Source: Bacillus sp. 123MFChir2
GTDB lineage: Bacteria; Bacillota; Bacilli; Bacillales; Bacillaceae_G
DNA length: 64,000 nucleotides
Assembly (NCBI RefSeq): GCF_000383235.1
Contig: NZ_KB910929.1
Span: forward strand, 1 to 64,000
Direction: 5' to 3'
In this document: piece after piece, positions 35,956 through 44,483 of the stretch
Position numbering within the stretch: the first letter of the stretch is position 1
How the letters are laid out: the number at the start of each line of letters is the position of its first letter
The notes under the pieces: model-generated
What the model saw: the letters and a program-made list of their open reading frames with translations, nothing else
What the model was told of the DNA's origin: nothing
The model's database searches: none
Translations under genes and position numbers: made by a program

Positions 35956-36026
35956 TAAGTATAAGAGAAAAAACTGTATTTGACAGGCATATACAAATGA
36001 TGTTATAAAGAAAAGTATATAAATAA

Positions 36027-37574
<1,548 letters not shown>

Positions 37575-37635: not shown

Positions 37636-38202
37636 TTGGATATTCAGAAAATTGTAGATGAGTATATTTTAAATCCGGAAAAATTAATTAGCTTTGGGGA
37701 AACCATCCTAAAAATTATTATTATTTTTATTGCGGCAAAAGTGATTATTCGCGTAGCTTCTGTAGGGATTGAACAAATATTTAAGATGAGCAGTAAAGCG
37801 CCTGTACGTACAAATGAAAGACGTGAAGCGACATTAACGAAGCTTTGTCAAAATATTGTTCATTATGTTGTGTATTTCATGGTCATTATGACGGTTTTAG
37901 AAACAGTAGGAATCGATATTAAAGCGCTTCTTGCTGGGGTGAGTGTTGCCGGTTTAGCAATTGGGTTTGGAGCACAAAACTTAGTAAAAGACGTTGTAAC
38001 AGGATTCTTTATTATTTTTGAAGATCAATTTTCAGTTGGCGATAAAGTGAAAATTAATGATATTGACGGTATCATCGAAGAAGTAGGGCTTCGTACAACG
38101 CAGCTCGTTGCAGAAACCGGTGAGATTTACTTCGTTGCGAACAGTTCAATTACAAAAGTTGCGAACTACTCTTTAGGTGAAAAACGTAAAGAGATAGCGT
38201 AA
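37636..38202 (+). CDS. Short MscS-family mechanosensitive channel
   Basis: 188 residues from a TTG after GGAGAGGAG. Two hydrophobic helices, then the MscS pore helix (LLAGVSVAGLAIGFGAQNLVKDVVTGFFIIFEDQFSVGD) and the beta domain (VKINDIDGIIEEVGLRTTQL). It stops at NSSITKVANYSLGEKRKE, just where the C-terminal alpha/beta cage should begin; relatives are usually 260-290 residues. I found no frameshifted continuation, and a terminator follows 14 bases later, so it seems a true short form. It should respond to osmotic downshock. Confidence 0.8.
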   Translation: MDIQKIVDEYILNPEKLISFGETILKIIIIFIAAKVIIRVASVGIEQIFKMSSKAPVRTNERREATLTKLCQNIVHYVVYFMVIMTVLETVGIDIKALLAGVSVAGLAIGFGAQNLVKDVVTGFFIIFEDQFSVGDKVKINDIDGIIEEVGLRTTQLVAETGEIYFVANSSITKVANYSLGEKRKEIA

Positions 38203-38357: not shown

Positions 38358-38733
38358 TTTTAGGTACTTAAATAGGGTGCATTTTAATTTATCAAAATAA
38401 TTCTCATTTTTCTGTTATTTATAACGTATTCAAAACTTCTAAAAATCCCCCTTTTATTTATCTAGTGTTAATTAAAAATTTAGGAATAAAAAATAAAAAA
38501 AATAAAAAAAAATTCATTTTAATAATATTAGTGTCGATTTTTGTCTTGTTTTTAATATTTAAAATAAAATTTAATGCGTATAAACTTCTAACTGTAATAT
38601 TTATGCAAAAAAGGTAAAAGTATTTTTGGGGTTAATATGGGTGTTTTTCTGTGATTACATGACGTCAATAAAGAGATGGTGATTGTGAAAGAATCTAATC
38701 ATTTCTTTCATCATGAACAAAGGAGGAGATTTA
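38358..38733 (+). promoter_or_regulatory. AT-rich upstream region of the ligase/ATP-grasp operon
   Basis: About 375 bases without a gene, extremely AT-rich with long A runs near 38.49 kb. Near the operon are a TGACGTCA palindrome (38660-38667) and an inverted pair TGAAAGAA/TTCTTTCA (about 38687-38709) that ends just before the first gene's ribosome site. These are possible operator sites. I could not assign -35/-10 boxes with confidence. Confidence 0.4.
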
Positions 38734-40065
38734 TTGTTTAGCACTTCAATATTTACAAATTTAGAGAAAACGACAGATTTTATCCCGAGGAAAGATAAAC
38801 AAATAAAGCAATTAGGACAACTAAATAAAGTTGTATCTTTTGCTAACGAACAATCGCGATTTTATCAGGAATTATATGAAAATGTAAATGTGAATGTAAG
38901 CAATCTTAGAGAGTATGAAGAAATTCCTATGATTAGTTCTCGGGATATTATGAAAGAAATTCCGCCAAAGCATATGCTGACCAGTTCTCTTCACAATTCT
39001 TACGTATTTACAAGTGGGGGAACAACGGGAGAACCTAAACTGATTTATTTAACAGCAGATGAGTTAAAAGAAAATATATTTTTTCATGGTAAAGGTTATG
39101 CAATGGCTGGAATTAATAAAAGTGATACAGTTGCTACTTTTGGAGTACCTGGATTTTTAACATCTGAGTTTACTGTTTATCTAGGACTTGAAAGAACAGG
39201 ATGTACAATTGTTCCTATAGGGATGAGTTCGGATCTTGAAAGGTTATCTAAGTATATCAAAATGTTTAATGTTACGACTCTTTTAGTCATGCCTTCGGAT
39301 GTAATACCATTAGCACAATATATAGAAAAAAACAAAAGTCAACTTTCAATAAATCGAATTGTTTATGGTGGAGAAAAAATGTATTCTTCTACCAAGAATT
39401 ATTTAGAATCTGCTTTAGGAGTGAAAGATTTTAAATCAGTATTTCAAAGTATGGATGTTGGGACTATTGGTTTTCAATGTGATTACTGTGAAGCAGGTAC
39501 GTACCATATACATGATCAATTGCAGTATGTTGAGATCTTGAATGAAAAAGGCCACCCTGTACAAGATGGAGAAGTTGGTGAACTTGTCATTACAAATTTA
39601 AAAAGAAAGTTGATGCCAGTTATTCGATATCAAACAAATGATTTGGTATTAAAAATAGATTCTTTGTGCCTGTGTGGGAGAACGAATCAAAGGATTAAAT
39701 TAATTGGAAGAAAAGGAGAAATTATTAAATTAGGTGGTGAACAAATCTTTCCACAAATTTTTGCCCAGGCATGCAGTCATTTAGACGAGTTGACTGGAGA
39801 ATTTCAATTAGTAGTAGAAAAACAGGGGAATAGAGATATGATTCACGTTTTTTTTGAAGTATCAGGAAAATCTATGGATAAAGAAATTGAAGAAAATTTA
39901 ATAAACAGAATTAGAGAGCGGATTTTAACTTATACACCGAAACTTAAGCAGATGATTCAATTACAGGTAATCGCCCCTTTAATAATCAGTTTAGTAGGAA
40001 GAGAGAATCTTAAGGTTTCTGAAAGTTCAGGAAAAGTCATTCGAGTTATAGATCAAAGAAAATAA
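38734..40065 (+). CDS. PaaK/CapK-like adenylate-forming ligase
   Basis: 443 residues of the phenylacetate-CoA ligase-like AMP-binding family. TSGGTTGEPK is the P-loop (about residue 93), FQCDYC and CLCGRTNQRI are the Cys pairs typical of PaaK-type proteins, and IKLIGRKGEIIKLGGEQIFP precedes the C-terminal domain, which ends with SSGKVIRV, a catalytic Lys region. It should activate a carboxylic acid as acyl-AMP, then perhaps transfer it to CoA or directly to an amine. The ATG at 38713 lies before the AAAGGAGGAG site; the TTG at 38734 is correctly spaced and chosen. First gene of a four-gene operon. Confidence 0.83.
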   Translation: MFSTSIFTNLEKTTDFIPRKDKQIKQLGQLNKVVSFANEQSRFYQELYENVNVNVSNLREYEEIPMISSRDIMKEIPPKHMLTSSLHNSYVFTSGGTTGEPKLIYLTADELKENIFFHGKGYAMAGINKSDTVATFGVPGFLTSEFTVYLGLERTGCTIVPIGMSSDLERLSKYIKMFNVTTLLVMPSDVIPLAQYIEKNKSQLSINRIVYGGEKMYSSTKNYLESALGVKDFKSVFQSMDVGTIGFQCDYCEAGTYHIHDQLQYVEILNEKGHPVQDGEVGELVITNLKRKLMPVIRYQTNDLVLKIDSLCLCGRTNQRIKLIGRKGEIIKLGGEQIFPQIFAQACSHLDELTGEFQLVVEKQGNRDMIHVFFEVSGKSMDKEIEENLINRIRERILTYTPKLKQMIQLQVIAPLIISLVGRENLKVSESSGKVIRVIDQRK

Positions 40066-40080
40066 ACGGAGGGATTTTAT

Positions 40081-41460
40081 ATGTTATTTAAACAAATTGG
40101 AGAAGAATTTCATAATTTAGCAGAAACAAATGAAAGAGGCTTTAAAGAGACTTTAAAAGAGGTAGATCAAATCATTCAACAAGAAGGATTAATATTCAAA
40201 GAAAAGGCGCTCCCTTTTTCTATTCAACCTTTAGCTATTACAGAAGAAGAAAATAAGTATTTTCAGAGAGCTTCTGAAACACTTTCTGATGCATTGGAAA
40301 TAGTGCTAGAAGCATATGAGAAAGATGAAGAGATTAAGGAGTTTTTTTCATACTACAATAAATACACAAGATTAATTAACATTAATCCAAGGTATAAGCG
40401 CAAAATTAGAATTTCAAGATTTGATTGTATATGGAATGGAGGAGAAGGATTTAAAGTTGTTGAACCAAATGCATGCTGCCCAGGAGGGGTTGTTGTATTA
40501 GGTAAATTGAAAGAAAGATGGGTTAATCTACCATTTATCAAAGGGATTACAAGTTCTTATGAACAGGAACAATTTTTGTGTGATACACCTAATGGATTTA
40601 TTAGTGAATTATTAAATGCTTATAAAGAAATGGGAGGTAATATTGATAAACCTCAAATTGCTCTTGTAAATTATGCTGGTAACTATTCATACGAATTGGA
40701 GCACATACAAAAATATGGTCGTGAAATGGGACATAACATTGTTATTTGTGATTTGCGAGATCTAAAATTAGATTCACAAAGGCAGCAACTTATGTATAAC
40801 GAATGTCCCATCGACATTATTTATAATAAAGTTGATCAATTAGAACTAGGTAATAAAGATATGGAGGATGTAATTGAAGCATGTGAGAAAGGGCTAGTTT
40901 GTAATGTTAACTCATATCCTTCCATGTTTATCGGAGAGAGTAAAATGACTTTAGCCTTACTTACAGATGCGAGATTTCAAGAAAAATATTTATCTTATGA
41001 ACAAGTCGAGATGGTTAATAAACATATTTTATGGACAAGAAAGTTAGAAGAAACTACAACTTCTTTTAAAGGAGAAATAATAAATTTAATTGAATATGTT
41101 ATTGATAATAAAGAACGCTTTGTTTTAAAAATTGATAATTCTACACGAGGGGAAAATGTATTTCTAGGTAAAGATGCAGATACAGAGGTATGGGCTAAAA
41201 TCGTAAATAATAATAAAAATACAAATTGGATTGTTCAGGAATATAATGAAATCCCAAGTGTAAGTATATTAGAACACAAAGATGGAAAAATTGTTAAAAA
41301 AAGTAAAAAATTCGGAATTGATATGTTTATGTTTGGTGGAAAGTATGCCGGAGTCGTATCACGTATTTCGGATAAAGCTGTTATTAATCTTGGGCAAGGC
41401 GGATATGAGCAACCTGTAATTGTATTAAAAGATGTGAAAGAAAAGGTAATGAGTGTATGA
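40081..41460 (+). CDS. Circularly permuted ATP-grasp protein 1
   Basis: 459 residues. Residues about 113-136 (ISRFDCIWNGGEGFKVVEPN then ACCPGG) match the substrate/metal strand of circularly permuted ATP-grasp and glutathionylspermidine synthase-like proteins, where E-x-N-x-x-x-PGG is conserved. Later, VLKIDNSTRGENVFLG and NWIVQEYNEIPS are the nucleotide-binding parts, and AVINLGQGG lies near the end. The glycine loop is less canonical than in the second copy. Expected to join a carboxylate to an amine using ATP. It is 15 bases after the ligase and overlaps the next gene by 4 bases. Confidence 0.8.
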   Translation: MLFKQIGEEFHNLAETNERGFKETLKEVDQIIQQEGLIFKEKALPFSIQPLAITEEENKYFQRASETLSDALEIVLEAYEKDEEIKEFFSYYNKYTRLININPRYKRKIRISRFDCIWNGGEGFKVVEPNACCPGGVVVLGKLKERWVNLPFIKGITSSYEQEQFLCDTPNGFISELLNAYKEMGGNIDKPQIALVNYAGNYSYELEHIQKYGREMGHNIVICDLRDLKLDSQRQQLMYNECPIDIIYNKVDQLELGNKDMEDVIEACEKGLVCNVNSYPSMFIGESKMTLALLTDARFQEKYLSYEQVEMVNKHILWTRKLEETTTSFKGEIINLIEYVIDNKERFVLKIDNSTRGENVFLGKDADTEVWAKIVNNNKNTNWIVQEYNEIPSVSILEHKDGKIVKKSKKFGIDMFMFGGKYAGVVSRISDKAVINLGQGGYEQPVIVLKDVKEKVMSV

Positions 41461-42824
41461 AGACACATGTTGATGATTTTAACGTGAGTGTACGAGAGAA
41501 TTCTCAATTAGCCATCAGCTCATTTAAACAATTACAAAATAAAATGGTTAAAGAGAGAGTTCTTCAGTATTATTCTGATAAAGAAACTATGATAATTCCA
41601 AAGCCTGGATTGTTAAGCGAGGAAAAATTGGAGATTCTCAGTAGGGATACCAAGGCATTATTAGATATTATTGTATCTTTACCAGAACGTATATTTTCAG
41701 GGGATATCCTAAAAATGTGTACAGTTCTAGGTTTTTCAGAAAAACAATATCAATTAATGATGTCAACGTATCAAAATAAGAATTTGATAGCTCGCGGCGA
41801 TATGTATTTTACAAAAGACGGATATAAATTTTTGGAGTTTAATGTAGATAGCAGTGTTGGAGGACTAGATATAGGATACTTAAATAAAAGCATGCGTTCT
41901 TTTGAGTTTTATAAAATGCTAAAGGGATCTGAAAAATGGGACTATGTTGATCCTATGGATGTATTAATAGAAAATATAAATAAACTAGCTATAAATATTG
42001 GGAAAAACTATAATGACATAACTATAGCCATTATGGATTGGGATGAATATCTTGATAGTTACTATGGTACCTTAAATTATATGAAATTAAGGCTAAAAGA
42101 AGCTGGATATAATGCGATTATATGTTCTCAAAAAGAAGCAGAATTTCAGGATAATATGCTCAAGGTAAATGGAAAGAAAATTGATATTCTATATCGTACA
42201 TTTTTATGTGATGATGCGCTTCATAACCCAGAAGAAGTACAAGCGATTGTCCAAGCTTTTCAAGCTGGTAATTTGGAATTATTAGCAGGATTTCATACTG
42301 AACTTTATGGAAATAAAGGAAATCTTGTATTTCTTTCAGATCCTTATTATAGTCATCTATTTACAAATGAAGAATTAGATTTAGTAAAAAGGTGCATTCC
42401 TTGGACTCGCTTTTTAAAAGACATGGTAACGTCAGAAAATAATCTAGATGTTGAGGGAATGGAGTATATTTTAAAGAATAAAGATAAACTTGTGATTAAG
42501 GCAACGATTGGTTATGGCGGAAATGAAGTATTTTTAGGCTGGAAGTACAATGAGAATGATTGGGAAAAAACGGTTTTAAATTTATTAAATTCTGATATTG
42601 TACATATTGTCCAGGAAAGGGTATATCCACATGAAGAAGAAATTCCTTTTGTAATAGAGGGAAATATTGACTTAAAGAAAGCCATCATGTGTTGGGGGGT
42701 ATACATCATTAATGGAGGATTCGCAGGAGCGATGTTAAGGGGATTACCCTGTGAGCAAAGTGATGTGGTGAATCTTGCAAATGGTGCAGCTGTAACATGT
42801 CTTTTTTATAGGAGTTATACATGA
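41457..42824 (+). CDS. Circularly permuted ATP-grasp protein 2
   Basis: 455 residues, distant paralogue of the preceding protein. FLEFNVDSSVGGLDIG is its E-x-N-x-x-x-x-GG segment, LVIKATIGYGGNEVFLGW the glycine-rich nucleotide loop, HIVQERVYPHEEEIPF the ATP-binding strand and VNLANGAAVTCL the C-terminal metal site. Low identity to protein 1 suggests two different steps rather than a tandem duplicate. Start and stop both overlap neighbours by 4 bases (ATGA), so the three products are coupled. Confidence 0.8.
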   Translation: MKTHVDDFNVSVRENSQLAISSFKQLQNKMVKERVLQYYSDKETMIIPKPGLLSEEKLEILSRDTKALLDIIVSLPERIFSGDILKMCTVLGFSEKQYQLMMSTYQNKNLIARGDMYFTKDGYKFLEFNVDSSVGGLDIGYLNKSMRSFEFYKMLKGSEKWDYVDPMDVLIENINKLAINIGKNYNDITIAIMDWDEYLDSYYGTLNYMKLRLKEAGYNAIICSQKEAEFQDNMLKVNGKKIDILYRTFLCDDALHNPEEVQAIVQAFQAGNLELLAGFHTELYGNKGNLVFLSDPYYSHLFTNEELDLVKRCIPWTRFLKDMVTSENNLDVEGMEYILKNKDKLVIKATIGYGGNEVFLGWKYNENDWEKTVLNLLNSDIVHIVQERVYPHEEEIPFVIEGNIDLKKAIMCWGVYIINGGFAGAMLRGLPCEQSDVVNLANGAAVTCLFYRSYT

Positions 42825-44170
42825 ATAGGTATAAGGAAATTTTGAAAATAACAATTCCAACTATCATTGAAATGAGTTCAACTAATTTAATGGGAGTAGT
42901 AAATCTTATAATTATTGGACACTTAGGTTATGAAGCAATTGCTGCAGTAGGTATTACAAACGTAGTTATATTAAATTTGTTTGCACTATTTAGTGGCATT
43001 GGCTTCGCTGTAAACTTTTTAGTATCACAATCTTATGGAGCTAGAGATTTTAAAAAATGTGTTACATACACGTATACAGGACTATATTCTGTTATAGCTC
43101 TATTTCCTTTTTTCTTATTATTCTCAACTTTTGCACCTTCATGGTTTTTTGGGATTATGGGGGTTTCGAAAAGTATTGCATTGATTGGAGTAGGTTATTT
43201 AGGATTAAGAATTATTTCATTTACACTGAACATGTTTCGGGTAGTATTAAATGGATTTTTTAGAGGGATAGGAAATACAAAGACTCCAATGTATTTTTCA
43301 ATTTTAGGTAATACTTTAAATGTAATATTAGCACTATTGTTGGTAAATGGATTTTTGTTCTTTCCTAAATTAGGCGTATTAGGTGCAGGTTGGGCATTTA
43401 TTGTTTCAGAAATTGTTCAACTTACAGGATTGCTAGTTTGCTATTTTAGGGAAAATAATGTATTTCCAACAAGAAAGCTTATAAGTTTTAAAGAAGGAGA
43501 GTTTAAACTAGTTAATATAGAGGGATTAAAGATCGGTTTAGAAGAACTAGGAATGAGCGGTGCAATGCTTGTATTTACTATATTCATTTCTAGAGTTGGT
43601 GATATAGAATTAGCTGCTACAGAAATTGTTTTAAATGTAATATCACTTGCATATTTGCCGGGGATAGGATTTGGAGTTACGGCAACGATTTTACTTGGAC
43701 AACAACTTGGAAAAAGAAGACCTCTCATTGCTAAAAAAATTGGATTTGATGTTATGAAAGTAGGACTTTACTTCATTGTTCCATTTACAATCATTTATTT
43801 TTTGGGTGCAGAATATATAGCAAAACTATTTACTACAGAAGAAGTGGTACTTTCACTAACTGCTGAAGTTTTACGTTTTGCTTCATTGTTCGTTATTTTT
43901 GATGGACTTCAATTAATTTTAGCTGGTGGTTTACGTGGTATCGGTGATAATTCTTATACAATGAAAGTAGCCTTATTATTAGGATGGCTCATGTTTATTC
44001 CAATATCCTTTATTTTTACCTTTGTGTGGGAATTAGGGGTTTATGGTCCGTGGGTTGGGTTTTACATTTATATTTTAGGACTATTTGTTGCATTTGGATA
44101 TAGATATTTGAAGATAGATTGGTCAAGTGTAGAAATGAAAGATACGACAGCGAGTGAAGAGTGTGTTTAA
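42821..44170 (+). CDS. MATE-family efflux transporter
   Basis: 449 residues, about twelve hydrophobic helices in two MatE halves. VVNLIIIGHLGYEAIAAVG in helix 1-2 and the GIGFGVTATILLGQQLGK region in the second half are MATE signatures. Coupled by a 4-base overlap to the second ATP-grasp gene, so it probably exports the product of the three enzymes, or protects the cell from it. Codon use and AT bias match the upstream three genes rather than the core. Confidence 0.88.
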   Translation: MNRYKEILKITIPTIIEMSSTNLMGVVNLIIIGHLGYEAIAAVGITNVVILNLFALFSGIGFAVNFLVSQSYGARDFKKCVTYTYTGLYSVIALFPFFLLFSTFAPSWFFGIMGVSKSIALIGVGYLGLRIISFTLNMFRVVLNGFFRGIGNTKTPMYFSILGNTLNVILALLLVNGFLFFPKLGVLGAGWAFIVSEIVQLTGLLVCYFRENNVFPTRKLISFKEGEFKLVNIEGLKIGLEELGMSGAMLVFTIFISRVGDIELAATEIVLNVISLAYLPGIGFGVTATILLGQQLGKRRPLIAKKIGFDVMKVGLYFIVPFTIIYFLGAEYIAKLFTTEEVVLSLTAEVLRFASLFVIFDGLQLILAGGLRGIGDNSYTMKVALLLGWLMFIPISFIFTFVWELGVYGPWVGFYIYILGLFVAFGYRYLKIDWSSVEMKDTTASEECV

Positions 44171-44330: not shown

Positions 44331-44483
44331 ATGTCACTAGAAGCATTAATTATTTTTTCACTGCTAAATGCAGGACAGCTAGCAGAAAACGAAACAAGTC
44401 AATTACAAAAAAATAATAGTGAGCAACATGTTTATGTGGAGAAACAAGAAGAGAATAAAACGATGAATATAAAAGTGAAATAA
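44331..44483 (+). CDS. 50-aa peptide of unknown function
   Basis: ATG after AAGAGGGAG at good spacing. The N-terminus is short and hydrophobic (MSLEALIIFSLLNAG), then a polar, Gln/Glu/Asn/Lys-rich tail with no Cys. It could be a small secreted or membrane-tethered peptide. It lies 160 bases after the MATE gene on the same strand, so it may or may not belong to that operon. A longer frame from 44238 lacks a site. Confidence 0.5.
   Translation: MSLEALIIFSLLNAGQLAENETSQLQKNNSEQHVYVEKQEENKTMNIKVK

Follow-up and report, generated by a model that had tools for sequence, protein, structure and literature searches.

A compact Bacillus operon joining an adenylate-forming ligase, two divergent ATP-grasp ligases and a MATE exporter

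The first 64,000 nucleotides of contig NZ_KB910929.1 of Bacillus sp. 123MFChir2 (the window) contain an operon of four genes on the forward strand (38734–44170), encoding a PaaK-type adenylate-forming acid ligase (gene A), two ATP-grasp ligases (genes B and C) and a MATE exporter (gene D). We consider it likely, with a probability of roughly 0.7, that the operon is a compact system for the biosynthesis and export of a small amide or pseudopeptide, independent of non-ribosomal peptide synthetases (NRPS). Chemistry of this type is known; the combination of these four genes, and the pairing of both ATP-grasp clades, were not found in our searches and appear undescribed.

In the proposed scheme, the product of gene A would adenylate a carboxylic acid to an acyl-AMP and hand the acid to an amine, or first to coenzyme A (CoA). 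The products of genes B and C would each use ATP to convert a carboxylate into an acyl phosphate and couple it to an amine or amino acid, in whichever order the steps may fall. The outcome would be a small molecule of about three or four units, which the MATE protein would export, probably protecting the producer. The molecule may be a metallophore, an antibiotic or a signal, the three options named in the original prediction.

Organisation and setting of the operon

Genes A (P0001; 38734–40065; 443 aa), B (P0002; 40081–41460; 459 aa), C (P0003; 41457–42824; 455 aa) and D (P0004; 42821–44170; 449 aa) are co-directional and all four frames are intact. The original prediction had described a 15-base gap between A and B and ATGA overlaps at the B/C and C/D junctions, and the coordinates of the open reading frames (ORFs) agree; this arrangement, an operon with translational coupling, favours a shared pathway, and no NRPS gene was found in the operon, again as predicted. 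The sequence CGGAGGG precedes gene B. Gene A is read from a TTG start, since this is supported by a ribosome-binding site, AAGGAGG, at 38720–38726 (forward strand); a longer frame is open from an ATG at 38713, before which no ribosome-binding site was seen.

The operon had been called AT-rich, and the GC content of its genes (0.304–0.319) does lie below that of all 39 other scored genes in the window (at least 0.321), 23 of which exceed 900 nt and have a mean of 0.394 and a minimum of 0.336. The codon-bias ranks of the four genes (10, 16, 18 and 28 of 43 window genes) are unremarkable, and the block is thus marked by base composition and not by codon choice. It is flanked by tyrS and mscS on one side and by rpsD on the other, the position originally given, in a region whose gene content resembles a Bacillales chromosome; acsA, tyrS and rpsD are close neighbours in B. 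subtilis.

The acid ligase and the exporter

Gene A matches AMP-binding (PF00501, 9e-14) and AMP-binding_C_2 (PF14535, 5e-9) above the curated Pfam cut-offs. Its best solved relative is the PaaK structure 4r1l (E 4e-43), with which it aligns over the P-loop (SGGTTGEP) and RYxTxDL regions and the CxCGR segment; its SGK motif, close to the C-terminus, has a counterpart in 2y27. Judged by these matches, gene A is a PaaK-type adenylate-forming (ANL) ligase with its motifs intact, as first proposed. It scores 146 bits against TIGR02155, the NCBIfam equivalog model for PaaK itself (phenylacetate-CoA ligase; cut-off 646), and 39 bits (E 4e-10) against that for DdaG-type fumarate-Dap ligases (cut-off 700), and so falls far below both. 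PaaK-like enzymes give CoA esters, while some adenylating ligases, such as DdaG, form amides directly; gene A may do either.

Gene D is, by its family matches, a MATE exporter (MatE 6e-52; TIGR00797 241 bits; both above cut-off), in line with the prediction. The best plasmid relative of this protein comes from Paenibacillus cellulosilyticus (33% identity). In that locus (L156, 9932–15179) the MATE relative lies just upstream of a gene weakly matching C (22%, E 2e-5) and two further co-directional genes. We take this C-matching gene and its two neighbours to resemble the widespread CP-ATP-grasp/alpha-E/transglutaminase group.

Two divergent ATP-grasp ligases with conserved catalytic residues

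Gene B matches GSP_synth (PF03738, 8e-8) above the Pfam cut-off and CP_ATPgrasp_1/2 below it, and is of glutathionylspermidine (GSP)-synthetase type. Gene C matches CP_ATPgrasp_2 below cut-off (1.5e-4) and no Pfam model above it, and no NCBIfam model, that of DdaF included, matches either protein. The predicted ATP-grasp identity of C comes from profile and motif evidence, and not from a curated match. The two proteins are homologues, with 25% identity over 353 aa (E 3e-18). A combined profile of B, C and their relatives matches the ATP-grasp enzyme Cp1B (9cjn, E 1.2e-8) and a putative GSP synthase (3n6x, 2.7e-4), as well as the bifunctional GSP synthetase/amidase and the acid–amine ligases YjfC and YgiC, and a profile of the C family gives 1.5e-4 with 3n6x and 3.6e-4 with 9cjn. 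The single sequences of B and C match no solved member.

The residues expected of an ATP site are kept in both proteins. In a 17-row alignment (A4), R113, D115, E128, N130, K288, R320, K350 and Q386 of B are invariant; in the C family, R113, D115, E127, K287, K348 and Q386 are present in 56 of 56 rows and N129 and R318 in 54. These positions include an RxD...ExN motif, formed by R113/D115/E128/N130 in B and R113/D115/E127/N129 in C, which is complete in 17/17 A4 rows and whose R, D and E occur in all 56 C-family rows and N in 54. In Cp1B, R139, D141, E163 and N165 surround the nucleotide, and their change to alanine abolished or significantly attenuated activity (PMC12568646). Going by motif correspondence, B and C appear to share this essential element, and the two proteins can be assigned to the GSP-synthetase/Cp1B type as homologous, divergent ATP-grasp ligases in which the catalytic columns are kept, much as the original prediction, which took them for circularly permuted, had read them.

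Relatives of the two ligases

Relatives of C were sought in the genomes of 84,980 species with two short peptide patterns as a first filter, so that the scan is blind to relatives in which these patterns do not occur. It gave 94 confirmed stretches, of which 80 were kept, all from Actinomycetota by their titles; the best relative reached 31% identity and none higher was found. Nine records were found for C in the plasmid search and six for B (three rhizobial, two from Pantoea, one from Streptomyces), with B 29–31% identical to the rhizobial and Pantoea proteins over ~97%. In the phylum of Streptomyces curacoi, B matched at E <= 1e-12 in 14 of 396 genomes (best 30%). No close relative of the operon proteins was found in viral contigs, and neither the operon DNA, compared with plasmids, nor the 16-kb region gave a match.

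A tree of 30 chosen rows, in which several branches including that of C are long, places C with an actinobacterial clade (100/100). B joins the proteins from rhizobia and Pantoea (94/91), and the nearest neighbour of that group is cluster 59, another actinobacterial clade (89/91).

Three rhizobial B relatives were seen in loci L003 (8663–13731), L154 and L155, the latter two on large plasmids and with B-like proteins 80–83% identical to that of L003, and only L003 showed a LAL ligase and an MFS_3 exporter. On a 38-kb plasmid of Pantoea agglomerans (L004, 8605–20272), a possible uncharacterised biosynthetic cluster surrounds the B-like ATP-grasp gene, with an ectB-like transaminase, ThiF, a TauD-type oxygenase, GNAT, CapA, two more ATP-grasps, MFS and an amidase.

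Gene neighbourhoods of the C family

The neighbourhoods of C's relatives were compared in 84 loci (80 genome loci and 4 Streptomyces plasmid loci). The C-like gene was picked up by a GC-based gene caller in 72 of them, and the remaining 12 still count in the denominators. Alignment A3 comprises 55 of the 72 called C-like genes (430–500 aa), with the plasmid loci left out. Neighbour classes are sequence clusters of which only representatives were Pfam-tested, and the controls were 40 stretches of 20 kb, taken at intervals along contigs from three of the genomes that hold the loci, in which any match to a cluster member was counted. LAL-type or DdaF-like ATP-grasps occur in 43/84 loci and 1/40 controls, and MFS exporters (three classes) in 45/84 and 1/40, an enrichment to be read as a guide only, many of the loci being related. 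Both occur in 25 loci and at least one in 63. Within 2.5 kb of the C-like gene, the 72 called loci have an ATP-grasp in 18 cases, an MFS exporter in 30 and either in 39. In L012 the ATP-grasp just downstream of the C relative has a match to the DdaF model (E 2.5e-57) that stays under the cut-off.

The original prediction had proposed that the three enzyme families and the MATE gene be sought together across Firmicutes. In the loci compared here the outcome was divided: the two ATP-grasp types do recur together, mostly with an exporter, and the exact four-gene set was not found. B-like (cluster 59) and C-like genes are together in five of the 84 loci (L015, L025, L031, L036 and L053), the B-like gene (20–23% identical to B) lying ~5 kb upstream of the C-like gene. 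Between the two is an MFS gene in four loci and an M20 peptidase gene in L025, and all five have two more families in common, which Pfam, applied to L053 only, shows to be HMGL-like and haem-oxygenase-like. The presence of cluster 59 alone (5/84 loci and 0/40 controls) is not significant (p 0.14). One member of each ATP-grasp group is thus brought together in five actinobacterial loci and in the window operon. These five loci resemble a natural-product locus.

We tentatively raise a broader view, which we hold to be rather less probable than its opposite: the two complementary, so far unassigned GSP-type ATP-grasp clades may be a conserved pair, linked in Actinomycetota and in Bacillales to different genes for acid activation and export. 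The pair would then define a new class of short pseudopeptides that are exported, and the operon would be its most compact version seen here.

Some PaaK-like genes near ATP-grasp relatives were set aside. Those in L062 and L064 were not counted as relatives of gene A because both lie at a locus edge, and because that of L064 is a LuxC-AMP-binding fusion and that of L062 its homologue, in the same cluster. In L148 a PaaK-type gene lies ~5 kb away from a B-like one, but among ferredoxin and thiamine-pyrophosphate enzymes, and we did not count it as an instance of this system.

Comparison with known pathways

The working logic of the operon would most likely be that of dapdiamide and E-64 biosynthesis (PMC12568646). 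E-64, made by Cp1A–D of Aspergillus, comes from a compact, NRPS-free cluster in which the ATP-grasp Cp1B acts alongside the adenylating enzyme Cp1D, an adenylate-forming amide bond synthetase (PMC12568646). By profile, Cp1B is remotely related to B and C. The E-64 cluster differs in having an Fe/2-oxoglutarate oxygenase and a pyridoxal-phosphate decarboxylase, and one ATP-grasp where the operon has two. Cp1D is described as unlike characterised bacterial amide synthetases (PMC12568646).

Dapdiamide biosynthesis likewise couples an adenylating ligase, DdaG, to an ATP-grasp, DdaF, and two amide-forming enzymes are also ascribed to the cystargolide pathway (PMC12568646). The DdaF model is matched by neither B nor C, and gene A matches the DdaG model weakly, far from its cut-off. 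The five paired actinobacterial loci are alike in holding one C-like and one B-like ATP-grasp, mostly with MFS between them; they differ in their two extra families and in having no PaaK- or MATE-like gene among the called genes. GSP synthetase, YjfC, YgiC and homoglutathione synthetase share the fold family of B and C by profile (homoglutathione synthetase at E 0.05 only), yet the similarity is remote, and at 455–459 aa B and C are too short to match the bifunctional synthetase/amidase (619 aa) in full. DdaF itself is an ATP-grasp of LAL type.

Literature searches returned no description of the four-gene set; a 2009 amidoligase survey, outside their scope, may mention such neighbourhoods. PMC13338154 was considered as a description and rejected, as it concerns an engineered penicillin route. 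The claim of an undescribed system thus appears to stand for the exact set and not for the kind, which has precedents in dapdiamide, E-64 and cystargolide (PMC12568646). Stand-alone amide ligases are of interest as biocatalysts according to the same source. Pathways built from them without NRPS genes would be missed by NRPS-keyed searches, and a four-gene operon is small enough for whole expression and assay in a laboratory strain, which puts both a possible new product and a possible new clade of ligases within reach of direct tests.

Weighing of the alternatives

Several observations weigh against a dedicated biosynthetic operon. The counted ATP-grasp and MFS classes are missing from 21 of the 84 loci, and among the called genes of these loci there was no PaaK of gene A's type and no MATE like P0004, so that the full set was not seen outside the window, in a survey that did not cover Bacillota directly. 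Two of the three rhizobial B relatives had no detected homologue of the L003 LAL or MFS genes within 6 kb. A three-row profile of B and two close relatives gives 0.038 with 3n6x and 0.71 with 9cjn, so the Cp1B link is weak for B by itself. The operon also has no gene for making an unusual acid or amine, and for this reason common acids, amino acids and polyamines are the first candidate substrates. A cationic end group, we would speculate, would be in keeping with export by a MATE protein and with B and C having GSP-synthetase ancestry.

B-family members also occur in other settings, such as beside GCS2 in L147, and this bears on a housekeeping role, in which B and C would protect against stress by conjugating polyamines with a peptide or an acid, while A and D would be incidental detoxification genes. 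The GSP_synth match of B and the reach of the profiles to YjfC and YgiC, termed peptidylpolyamine synthetases in PMC12568646, point the same way. We nevertheless consider such polyamine or thiol conjugation unlikely, given that four tightly coupled genes of uniformly low GC form an accessory pattern, that three quarters of the C-relative loci (63/84) carry a counted ATP-grasp ligase or MFS exporter, and that GSP_synth is found in only 4 of 56 C-family members.

Low GC and the lack of close relatives in the collections searched would also fit a decayed or non-functional genomic island; with four intact frames, and with catalytic motifs kept in A, B and C, we regard this as highly improbable. 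Hardly more credible is that the ATP-grasps tailor a small gene-encoded peptide. A 50-aa ORF with a plausible ribosome-binding site lies directly downstream of the MATE gene (44331–44483), the only candidate for a graspetide precursor beside the ATP-grasps, and peptide ligases that build on scaffold peptides have been proposed to share ATP-grasp ancestry (PMC11117183). This ORF, however, matched nothing in plasmids or NCBIfam, inspection by eye showed no obvious repeated core, and peptide tailoring would not be expected to involve an acid ligase of PaaK type. An operon for the synthesis and export of a small amide remains our preferred reading.

Other features of the window

On the coding strand of the operon no terminator was found, and the scans for promoters and terminators did not exceed the level of shuffled sequence. 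Within the operon, none of the Rfam families attained its gathering score. No tRNA genes were found in the window. An 18-nt near-direct repeat (16/18), which may be due to chance, flanks the operon at 38140–38157 and 44393–44410, one copy near the end of mscS and the other inside the small downstream ORF. An ordinary T-box leader (Rfam) precedes tyrS at 36025–36252.

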